Shown here piece after piece: positions 3,686 through 59,506 of a stretch of DNA of 64,000 bases. This DNA is from Neopestalotiopsis rosae (lineage: Eukaryota > Ascomycota > Sordariomycetes > Amphisphaeriales > Sporocadaceae). Within the stretch, counting starts at the first letter, position 1; each line of letters opens with the position of its first letter. Made by a program: the position numbers and the translations under genes. The notes beneath the pieces were generated by a model that made no database searches, was not told where the DNA came from, and saw only the letters and a list, made by a program, of their open reading frames with translations. The stretch spans positions 2,046,001 to 2,110,000 of the forward strand of contig JALGAS010000006.1 of the NCBI GenBank assembly GCA_023078685.1, in the 5' to 3' direction.

Positions 3686-3787
3686 GATGTTGTAGTATAG
3701 TGGTCAGTACATCACGTTGTGGTGTGAGCAATCACCTACAACCACGGCATCTCCGTGAAGACCCCGGTTCGATTCCGGGCAACGTCA
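3686..3787 (+). tRNA. tRNA-His (GTG), with 30-nt intron, copy 1
   Basis: The cloverleaf can be folded by eye. The acceptor stem GATGTTG pairs with CAACGTC, followed by discriminator A3787. The D-arm is GTAT-AGTGGTCA-GTAC, the anticodon stem TCACG/CGTGA, and the T-arm CCCGG-TTCGATT-CCGGG. The anticodon GTG is at 3719-3721. An intron at 3723-3752 lies one base 3' of the anticodon (37/38), the standard site for nuclear tRNA introns cut by the TSEN endonuclease. The TAGTATAGTGGT A-box region resembles yeast tRNA-His. The G at -1 needed by tRNA-His is added after transcription. A second copy starts 508 bases downstream. Confidence 0.93.
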
Positions 3788-4193: not shown

Positions 4194-4294
4194 GATGTTG
4201 TAGTATAGTGGTCAGTACATCACGTTGTGGAATTAAATCCTCCGCAGCCACGGGCAATCCCGTGAAGACCCCGGTTCGATTCCGGGCAACGTCA
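4194..4294 (+). tRNA. tRNA-His (GTG), with 29-nt intron, copy 2
   Basis: The mature parts are identical to copy 1 (acceptor GATGTTG/CAACGTC, stem TCACG/CGTGA, anticodon GTG at 4227-4229). The intron 4231-4259 sits at the same 37/38 position but its sequence is quite different from that of copy 1. The T-run after 4319 (TTTCTTTTTGTTTTTT) is a plausible Pol III terminator. Confidence 0.93.
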
Positions 4295-56367: not shown

Positions 56368-58071
56368 GATGACGATACAGTTGTTTCTGAAAACCTGGAT
56401 TGCGAAAGTGTGCCGGGTTGAATGTGGATGAATACGGATGAATGAGTTGAAAGCAGTTCATGGAGCACTTGACAGAAATAAAGCGGTGCGAGATGAGGAA
56501 TTATCACTTGAAGCGACCTTTGATTCGATCAAAGAGAATGAAAAGACTGTGATCATTTTGTCTGGGGGAAAGTCTCTGTGTGTGCGCGCAAATTCGTCTG
56601 GGCACCCCAACCAACCCAGACCAGTGAACCAAAGCCTGCCAAGCAGGCCCAAGACATTGATGGAAATCCCAAGGTCAAGCGCGCTCGCAGGACCAGAAAC
56701 CAGGGCTGAGAGATGGTTTGCAATGAAAATCGACTGCACTAACGAGGAATTGTGATGACAAGGGATGACTTTTGGCAATGACCGTTCCGCATCGAAAAGT
56801 CTCGCCGCCGCAACAAAAGTCACCAAGTAAAAGTTTATTGTAACACAATGCAAATCTGAGGATTGCAAATGACAATGGAGGACCATGACGGAAGTTTTGC
56901 GATCATTTTCAATCAAGTCTATCTTACAGAAAGCGATTCATGTGGTTTTACAGTTTACTGTGTGAGTGGGTTTTACTTTGAGTATGTAAATTTGGTGCAT
57001 AGTAGTAAACAAAATATATACATGTCTAAGCGAGAAGTCTGCATTCCTTCAGTTTTCGTATATATATATAAATCAATAGGAAATGAATAGTTGTTCTTAT
57101 AAATTCTGGTTTTCCTTCTTTTCTAATGCATTCGCTTTTGCTCTTATAATTATCGTGAAAAAAAAAAATTGAAAAAAAAAAGGTAAAAATAAGTCTTGAG
57201 GGTTTATCGGGGAATTGAACCTTCATCCTCCGCACATTATACTTCGTCATGGTATATCAAAGTTTCGCTTCGGAGGAAGTTGCATGGTGACCAATATGCA
57301 CTGCACAGCTTGAATGTGTGTCATGGTGATGGGCTCTCGTAAAACACAATCATAGCAGGGGTCAATGTTTGCTTTCCCATAGCAAACATCTTCGTCTTTT
57401 TCTTTTTCCACTATCCAGCAATACACCCAAAAGTTTCAATACCGTGACACAAAGTGCGTTCAAGCATAGTCGAAATGGGCCAACTGCACTCCTGGGCTTT
57501 GCATAGTGGTTTATAGATTCAAGTTGGGGTCTTGCTCAACACTGCGTATATTGATGAATCGAAGGCTCACATTTGAATGTCCGCTGGAAAAGATGGCAGC
57601 ACCTTGAAGACTTGTACTCAGTCTTGTTCTGCTTTCGATGGAGCCGGGGGCTTTACAATAAACCTTCATTCCATGCTGGCATTGTGATCCTGAGCCACCT
57701 CAACAGTCCACTGTGTACCCTGTGAACACCGATCAGACTTGGTGTTCTGGGGCGTCAGAAGCCATCTTATTCCTATGTTCTCGATCACACGGTCTCGCCA
57801 GTGGCAGCCGAGTGCCTTATAGTATCAAAAACCTGTCCATGACGGATCAGAGAGGCAACACCTTGAGAGGCCGCACAAGACCAAGTCAACATCCATACAG
57901 TGTGACATGTGTGCCGTCTGTGGAGAAGTCCCCACAGTCGTGCCGGAAATGGCTCATCTGGCCGCTCGCTTAGGCAAAAAGCCACGTCGTTCCAGGAACT
58001 TGTCTTACCTATGTATACCGCAAATACGGACTTCTTTGCAACATCGGAACTGGAATAAACCAGATTTAAGC
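56368..58071. other. Intergenic 1.7 kb, left of tRNA-Pro
   Basis: AT-rich in 57000-57190 with A and T runs. Only short ORFs. A tRNA-T-arm-like fragment near 57205-57235 (minus) does not fold into a tRNA. Confidence 0.4.
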
Positions 58072-58211
58072 GGCGCGATGGTCTAGCGGTATGATTCCTG
58101 CTTTGGGAAACTGAAATATGCAGGAGGTCGTAAGTTATAATCTCAAATATCACGAGAATCGAACAATATGCTAACACACGAGATAGCCGGGTTCAATCCC
58201 CGGTCGCGCCC
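58072..58211 (+). tRNA. tRNA-Pro (TGG) with two introns, one of them spliceosome-like
   Basis: Acceptor GGCGCGA (58072-58078) pairs perfectly with TCGCGCC (58204-58210); discriminator C58211. A-box region TGGTCTAGCGG and B-box GGTTCAATC are intact. Anticodon stem CCTGC/GCAGG (58097-58101/58120-58124), anticodon TGG at 58104-58106. An 11-nt intron, 58108-58118, sits at the standard 37/38 site. After the five-base variable loop AGGTC (58125-58129) comes a 57-nt insertion, 58130-58186, and then a perfect T-arm CCGGG-TTCAATC-CCCGG. The insertion begins GTAAGT, contains TGCTAACAC, and ends ATAG. Removing both insertions gives a normal 72-base tRNA-Pro. The first intron would be cut by TSEN; the second looks like an mRNA-type intron. 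It could be a pseudogene, but every stem is intact. Confidence 0.85.
58130..58186 (+). other. 57-nt GT-AG insertion inside tRNA-Pro, spliceosomal-intron-like
   Basis: Donor GTAAGT at 58130-58135, branch sequence GCTAAC at 58170-58175 (branch A 58174), acceptor TAG ending 58186, 12 nt after the branch A. It lies between canonical tRNA positions 48 and 49. Length and all three signals match the protein-gene introns in this window (mostly 50-98 nt). Confidence 0.75.
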
Positions 58212-59506
58212 ACTCAACTTTTCTTTTTGCCCTTTCTGGGCTCTCATATCTTTCTTCTAAACCCTTCAAACATCTTCTCAAAGTTTGGGATTGATCTGGT
58301 CACTTGTCGTTGAGAAATGTCAATTATCGTAATGACTATATTCTGGTGTTGCGGTATATGGCTACCACTTTTTCGCACTTTCCTGCAGTATAGTTCACCC
58401 AAATGGAAGGCACAAGTCATCTCAACACTAGTGGACATGTATCATCCTACTCAGTACATTCTACAATTGCGCAATTGGTGATAATGAGCACATGTATATT
58501 TGGATCATGGTGATCATGAGCATTCATCCGCCCAGCAGAAATGAGTCGCGGGCCCAAAGGGTTGGTGCGGGGATGCGATGTTGCATGGCTTGGGACCCAC
58601 TAGACACGTTTCCGGCTAGCGGAGCCGGCACGGACCATATCGACCACACGGCTGGATACACATACTGTGTATACGTACCTGCCCAGCACATAATTTCAAA
58701 TTATAGCGACAATGATGTTTGAACAAAACTTCAAATTGACCATTGCGAAACACGGCCATACCTATACGACGCTTGGAATGCTGCAATTTTCTCGGAATAT
58801 CGGACTGGAATTTGAAGCTCTAGGTGCATTGTGTACCACAATGCACCCACAACGCAATTTACACAATGCCCCCGAATGGAAGTGCTTTGATCAATCGCCA
58901 GATCACAGACAACAACAATAATATTTGCAACCGGTTGTTTTGTCATCACCACCGATGTTCTATTTCAACATGGAGGCGGAAAATATCACAAACAATATGA
59001 TTGGCCAGTTTAAACATTGTATCTGAATTATCAGACTACCGTTGTGGCCTTATTACGGATGGGAATGACCACCATACTGGATGCCTTTCAATACTGCAAT
59101 TTTACAGCACGCTTCTCGCAATCATTCATTGACAACAGATTCCAATCGTGCAAACATTATTAAAGCGCTATATCACCAGAATCATTTCATGAGCCCATCG
59201 ACGAAGAGAACTGAATTGCACCTTCGGTGCAATACCAAGAAGGATCAAGTAAAATGTGTGACCCAATTGGCCTAGAAGGCACGCTCTAGCTCCCATGCCG
59301 TCACAGGGTCCCTTCTCCGATAGCGGGGCAAATGTCAATCCAGTCAATATTTTTGGCGGGGCAATTCTCTCGTGGCACCCGGTTGCGAGATCCAAAGACG
59401 ACTCAAGTGACGCATCTTCCTATTCTAAGTTCTGCGATTCGTAGATATCCTTTTTTGCTCAATTCTATTATTTTGGACCCTCAATCACCCTCCGAGTATC
59501 TTCAAA
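58212..59506. other. Intergenic 1.3 kb, tRNA-Pro to HOM2
   Basis: A TTTTCTTTTT run at 58219-58228 just after the tRNA is a good Pol III terminator. The last ~200 bases are the HOM2 promoter; CGACTCA and TGACGCA near 59399-59416 are one-mismatch relatives of the amino-acid control site TGACTCA. No ORF supported. Confidence 0.4.
58219..58228 (+). terminator. Pol III terminator of tRNA-Pro
   Basis: A T-rich run (TTTTCTTTTT) begins 8 bases after the tRNA 3' end, as expected for RNA polymerase III termination. It supports the locus being a transcribed tRNA gene. Confidence 0.7.

Follow-up and report, generated by a model that had tools for sequence, protein, structure and literature searches.

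Can a nuclear tRNA gene carry an intron of the mRNA type in addition to one of the canonical TSEN type? This question is raised by a gene in a 64,000-nucleotide stretch of Neopestalotiopsis rosae DNA, hereafter the window. At positions 58072-58211 on the plus strand lies a tRNA-Pro gene with the anticodon TGG, which is split by two inserts, 11 nt at the 37/38 position and 57 nt at the 48/49 position (Table 1). A preliminary description had proposed that the two inserts are a TSEN intron and a spliceosomal intron, respectively, combined in one tRNA gene.

Table 1 Elements of the split tRNA-Pro(UGG) gene and its 3' flank, in window coordinates
Feature	Position	Strand	Basis
tRNA 5' exon: acceptor 5' strand, D arm, anticodon stem 5' strand, loop to G37, anticodon TGG	58072..58107	+	sequence; ARAGORN
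A box in 5' exon	about 58079-58089	+	placed by consensus
37/38 tRNA intron, canonical TSEN type, 11 nt	58108..58118	+	ARAGORN (11-nt intron at 38)
tRNA middle exon: nt 38, anticodon stem 3' strand, variable loop AGGTC	58119..58129	+	identical to L041 copy
Spliceosomal-type intron at 48/49, 57 nt, GTAAGT donor, TAG acceptor	58130..58186	+	splice signals, register, shuffles
Branch-site motif GCTAAC, branch A 58174, 12 nt before intron end	58170..58175	+	fungal consensus RCTRAY
tRNA 3' exon: T arm, acceptor 3' strand, discriminator C	58187..58211	+	T stem 5/5, acceptor 7/7 pairs
B box in 3' exon	about 58190-58199	+	placed by consensus
Pol III terminator-like T runs: T4 at 58219, T5 at 58224	58219..58228	+	sequence

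With both inserts removed, all 20 stem pairs of the tRNA are formed, in line with the perfect acceptor, anticodon and T stems described at the outset, and the anticodon and the discriminator are intact as well, as in a functional tRNA-Pro(UGG). The Pol III signals mentioned in the preliminary description were also found in the sequence: A and B boxes, the placement of which rests on consensus, and two T runs downstream, with no T4 within the gene. The distance between the two boxes, about 100 bp, is long for a tRNA gene. When introns were allowed and the 57-nt insert was deleted, ARAGORN identified a tRNA-Pro(tgg) and placed its 11-nt intron at position 38, in agreement with the insertion originally placed at 37/38. 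When the 57-nt insert was kept, the program returned the same two ends, but as a spurious tRNA-Gln(ttg) with a 69-nt intron.

The Rfam tRNA model missed the gene in the window, where two other intron-bearing tRNAs were detected, and did not match it at E<=1 in the interval 57900-58400. ARAGORN in the setting of the search tool found zero tRNAs in the window; it also missed both of the Rfam-detected tRNAs, so that its miss says little. A proline covariance model, trained on five proline tRNAs including the split gene itself, recovered the full gene from the whole window at 54.1 bits, compared with 80.9-85.1 bits for ten other proline copies. On a short stretch with the filters off, the same model produced a 38.6-bit alignment that used part of the insert as the T arm, and the true T arm alone scored 12.8 bits. 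Because the gene escaped the Rfam tRNA model and was misread by ARAGORN, similar genes may hide in sequenced fungi.

The 11-nt insert has the features of a TSEN intron. It lies at 37/38, and three of the four central pairs of the bulge-helix-bulge (BHB) motif are formed between the anticodon region and the 3' part of the intron. All of the ten other proline tRNA genes found in the genome also have 37/38 inserts, the sequences of which differ from that of the split gene. The two tRNA-Pro(CGG) genes, L040 and L042, have longer ones (32 and 34 nt, as estimated by match length) with a common 3' end, TCACCAGAYGAGTA.

The 57-nt insert differs from the canonical eukaryotic TSEN intron in both place and kind. 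Six excision registers are available at the variable loop, and only one of them yields AGGTC. The same variable loop is present at locus L041, the one further tRNA-Pro(UGG) detected in the genome; after removal in this register, the variable and anticodon loops are identical to those of L041. It is also the sole register of the six in which the removed segment is GT...AG. The tRNA anatomy and the splice rule, which are mutually independent, thus agree to the base, and the insertion lies exactly at the 48/49 junction, as first described. The splice signals are likewise present as the preliminary description had read them. The donor, GTAAGT, fits GTRWGT, and the branch A of GCTAAC lies 12 nt from a YAG acceptor (TAG), compared with a fungal consensus of RCTRAY at 6-36 nt given in PMC5832005. 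According to the same source, fungal U3 introns mostly have GTRWGT-like donors, RCTRAC branch sites and YAG acceptors, among which CAG far exceeds TAG (129 vs 8).

We evaluated how often such an arrangement arises by shuffling. A loose intron consensus (starting with GTRNGT, ending with YAG and having CTRAY 6-36 nt before the end) was in place in 7 of 3,000,000 mononucleotide shuffles of the insert, and a strict consensus, which had been chosen after the insert had been seen, in 0 of 3,000,000. The combination GTAAGT..GCTAAC..TAG occurs once in the window and in none of 100 window shuffles. In the whole genome it has 169 matches, vs 49 for the reversed pattern, indicating that about 70% of the matches to it probably represent genuine introns.

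For comparison, 21 introns were predicted in 324 kb by open-frame continuity, a method that imposes the donor type, the branch motif and a length of 45-130. Their branch distances are 9-23, the commonest donor is GTAAGT (8 of 21), and their acceptors are CAG in 14 cases and TAG in seven. The 57-nt insert falls within the length and branch ranges of this set, and the earlier statement that its length is average for local mRNA introns holds against the medians of both the predicted introns (63) and 70 pattern-matched introns (58.5). Its GC content (33%) makes it more AT-rich than the predicted introns (mean 46%). The absence of TTTT from the insert is weak evidence, as TTTT is present in only 19 of the 70 pattern-matched and 3 of the 21 predicted introns. 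Taken together, these observations make it very probable that the 57-nt insert originated as a spliceosomal intron.

U6 snRNA is classically a Pol III gene, and Canzler et al. reportedly dealt with fungal U6 introns in 2016. The genome searched here comprises 53.8 Mb in 17 contigs. Its short introns and CTAAC-type branch sites are suggestive of a filamentous ascomycete, as is its Nup96-like protein, for which the closest match among solved structures is the Nup145C entry 4ycz (Myceliophthora). The Rfam search for U6, with 47 of 3289 first-look candidates scored, gave one locus, C11:3398425-3398483, which covers model positions 1-66 only. A 56-nt GTAAGT...GCTAAC...TAG intron begins at the next base, directly after CCCCTGCAC. 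The sequence resumes after this intron with TAAGGATGACACGC, which we take to be the second half of U6 and which remained unscored by Rfam. The split U6 gene corresponds to 1501-1640 of L049 (G000:C11:3398425-3398564). The regular expression for introns matched exactly once in the U6 gene and nowhere in the SRP and RNase P RNA gene matches, which span their models end to end, the RNase P RNA match being a loose one (38.7 bits, with unaligned inserts). The U6 intron carries a B-box-like GTTCGATTCC, such as is present in one of 70 comparable introns, and it may hold part of the promoter. Given that the intron lies in the only detected U6 gene, the maturation of U6 would depend on U6 itself.

The U6 intron bears directly on the tRNA case. 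Judging from the sequence, splicing of a Pol III-type transcript probably takes place in this organism already, and the main prior objection to a spliceosomal intron in a tRNA gene is thereby removed. The statement in the preliminary description that mRNA-type introns occur in fungal U6 genes is borne out both by this genome and by PMC10484740, which names fission yeast as an example. Like the insert in the tRNA gene, these introns have GT-AG ends and a CTAAC-type branch site and lie inside a classical Pol III gene; the host here differs, being a tRNA with a TSEN intron as well. A further difference is that U6 adjoins the catalytic site of the spliceosome, the reason usually given for the acquisition of its intron by reverse splicing, whereas a tRNA does not.

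We next consider whether the spliceosomal intron is actually removed. In the serious rival reading, the insert did originate as a spliceosomal intron, but the split gene is silent or yields no productively spliced transcript. It would then be a redundant gene, recently hit and turning into a pseudogene, with L041 supplying tRNA-Pro(UGG). An A-box pattern matched 12 sites in the genome, consisting of seven AGG, two CGG and two UGG genes and one non-tRNA. The two UGG genes are the split gene and L041 (contig C1), which is intact, with a 37/38 intron and an uninterrupted T arm. An anticodon-based UGG pattern, which the split gene is unable to match, found L041 and L052, and the latter, with 2/5 T-stem pairs, is not a tRNA. 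Several intact tRNA-Pro(TGG) copies elsewhere, combined with a lack of conservation, had been named in advance as evidence against a spliced gene; one such copy was found rather than several, by two patterns that divergent UGG copies may both escape. With L041 intact, the split gene may be dispensable or silent, and a rule of thumb in PMC4090602 points in the same direction.

The two genome scans for a second tRNA intron, which covered the insertion site 48/49 and the branch motifs CTAAC and CTGAC, also speak for a silent copy. The CTAAC pattern had five matches (19 in the reversed control), among which only the split gene was a tRNA with a full T stem, and the CTGAC pattern had 18 (17 in the control), none with a full T stem and 4/5 pairs at best. 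The Rfam tRNA search of the genome, in which 63 of 1703 candidates were scored, is no census of tRNA genes. Similar genes had 0 matches in the IMG/VR and GTDB contigs, as expected for a fungal gene.

However, decay is not visible in the split gene: the 20 pairs, the boxes, the terminators, the 37/38 intron and the splice signals are all intact, and the U6 intron implies that the spliceosome of this genome handles a Pol III-type transcript. The split gene and L041 differ at 13 of 72 mature positions, and three acceptor pairs and one T-stem pair are changed on both sides. These two-sided changes at paired positions indicate that the stems have been maintained by selection since the two UGG copies diverged, which does not date the insert. 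In an alignment of five proline tRNAs with the introns removed (the split gene, one representative of the seven AGG genes, the two CGG genes and L041), all 100 pair cells were standard and 10 of 20 pairs were changed on both sides, vs a shuffled mean of 4.6, indicating that the divergent acceptor stem of the split gene stays paired. In addition, CCA and CCG make up 104 of the 252 proline codons in the eight window ORFs with Pfam support; work therefore exists for a UGG tRNA, though not necessarily from this locus. On balance, we regard a silent copy as unlikely, though not negligible, and consider that the 57-nt intron is probably spliced to yield a tRNA, as judged from the DNA.

The remaining rivals concern the nature of the insert itself. 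One is that the intron is part of a Pol II transcript that traverses the locus, such as a long 5' leader of an aspartate-semialdehyde-dehydrogenase-like gene, with the tRNA being incidental. Such a gene does lie on the same strand about 1.3 kb downstream (ATG at about 59508). This reading, which we consider very improbable, does not fit with the intron edges, which coincide to the base with the 48/49 junction and restore a tRNA, with the two T runs that follow the tRNA gene, or with the short overlapping ORFs (130 a.a. on the minus strand, 57785-58177, and 59 a.a. on the plus strand, 57907-58086).

Slightly less probable still is an ectopic tRNA intron cut by the splicing endonuclease, as in the tRNAs of Cyanidioschyzon merolae or the Guillardia theta nucleomorph. 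Three sources (PMC9602550, PMC4090602 and PMC3978253) describe eukaryotic tRNAs with multiple introns, some of them in the T arm; as here, more than one intron occurs in a nuclear-type tRNA gene, with one outside 37/38. The introns of the C. merolae tRNA-Ile studied have BHB motifs, whereas many of the Guillardia introns lack a defined BHB, and an insert without this motif could on that ground belong to the same kind. The 57-nt insert has no BHB, with 0-1 of 4 central-helix pairs in each of the six registers vs 3/4 at 37/38. It has spliceosomal signals instead, and an endonuclease substrate would leave GTAAGT, GCTAAC and TAG unexplained.

Just as improbable as the ectopic intron is an insert that the mature tRNA retains to form a giant variable arm, or that arose as a chance insertion resembling an intron. 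The variable-loop position tolerates extra length in principle, as is generally known from class II tRNAs, but the insert has no stable fold (-3.7 kcal/mol, z 0.18), so that a structured variable arm is not supported, and the shuffle counts given above argue against chance. A self-splicing group I or II intron is likewise not supported, given the same folding values, the length of 57 nt and the lack of an Rfam match at E<=1 in 57900-58400.

Returning to a spliceosomal intron that is productively removed, we counted several points against it: the two pattern scans gave no second tRNA gene with an intron at 48/49, the SRP and RNase P RNA genes showed no such intron, the insert is AT-rich, its acceptor is TAG rather than CAG, the A-to-B distance is long, and the 38.6-bit alternative alignment exists. 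The proposal that one tRNA gene combines a spliceosomal and a TSEN intron is nevertheless supported by what the DNA could test. The anatomy, the register, the stems and the signals lead us to the view that this is likely a nuclear tRNA-Pro(UGG) gene that, besides its TSEN intron, has gained a U2-type spliceosomal intron at 48/49, and that would be transcribed by Pol III, spliced and functional. A little more cautiously, we suggest that it may well be the first nuclear tRNA gene whose maturation needs the spliceosome, TSEN and tRNA ligase, in an organism whose U6 has the same dependence.

In the pathway that we propose, Pol III would transcribe the gene from its internal A and B boxes, as it presumably transcribes the U6 gene here. 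U1 and U2 would probably recognise the pre-tRNA in the nucleus through GUAAGU and GCUAAC, and splicing would join C48 to C49, thereby restoring a normal variable loop beside the T arm. This spliceosomal step is expected ahead of end maturation and export. It would probably also precede TSEN, which, together with tRNA ligase, would take out the 11-nt 37/38 intron last. For comparison, in the C. merolae tRNA-Ile, the D- and T-arm introns are supposedly removed ahead of the anticodon intron, according to PMC9602550. It is a matter of speculation that the supply of tRNA-Pro(UGG) is tied to the activity of the spliceosome.

The intron probably originated by a rare insertion into the tRNA, for example by reverse splicing. 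BLAST-type searches for its source, either an intron or a transposon, gave no further copy of the 57-nt insert in the genome at E<=10, nor of the 501-bp region; these searches are blunt, as a spliced-tRNA query recovered its own 5' exon only and missed L041. Direct repeats flanking the insert were not found. There is no support for the idea that the tRNA intron was derived from the one in U6: the global alignment score of the two, 10.0, ranks 21st of 71 when compared with 70 other pattern-matched introns. The same score exceeds those of all eight GTAAGT introns in the predicted set of 21 (best 8.5).

The preliminary description knew of no well-established case in a nuclear tRNA, and we found no precedent for a spliceosomal intron in a tRNA gene in the open-licence part of PMC that was searched. 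The main text of PMC4090602 has no word beginning with 'spliceosom'. According to a 2017 paper (PMC5832005), no small structured RNAs other than U3 and U6 are known to be frequently split by an intron. The fungal U3 snoRNA introns resemble the present one in that canonical spliceosomal signals lie within a small structured RNA, and differ in the host RNA. The kind of arrangement, an mRNA-type intron in a Pol III gene, is thus known, and the host, a tRNA gene with a second intron of the TSEN type, appears to be new.

If the intron is spliced, the gene would be an exception to the rule by which, in the nucleus, the substrates of the spliceosome are distinct from those of the tRNA splicing endonuclease, and the spliceosome would act on ordinary Pol III transcripts, not on U6 alone. 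A very short Pol III transcript would then be spliceable without Pol II-coupled recruitment, and the view that membership of the catalytic core is the sole reason for the gain of introns by U6 would be weakened. As a natural substrate of two machines, the pre-tRNA would also bear on the order and place of splicing, end trimming, folding and export.

Several other observations were made in the window and the genome. Upstream of the split gene, the minus strand contains a B-box-like GGTTCAATTCC stretch at window positions 57200-57260, which neither includes a recognisable tRNA nor matches Rfam at E<=1. Two tRNA-His(GTG)-like genes, the anticodons of which were read by eye, lie about 500 bp apart at window positions 3686-3787 and 4194-4294 and have different post-anticodon inserts. 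On contig C7 (50,891 bases), several tRNA matches are repeated about 34.94 kb apart, and contig C8 (34,938 bases) contains counterparts of them at a near-constant shift. The two contigs probably represent a circular, likely mitochondrial genome of about 34.9 kb, which C8 contains once and C7 about one and a half times.
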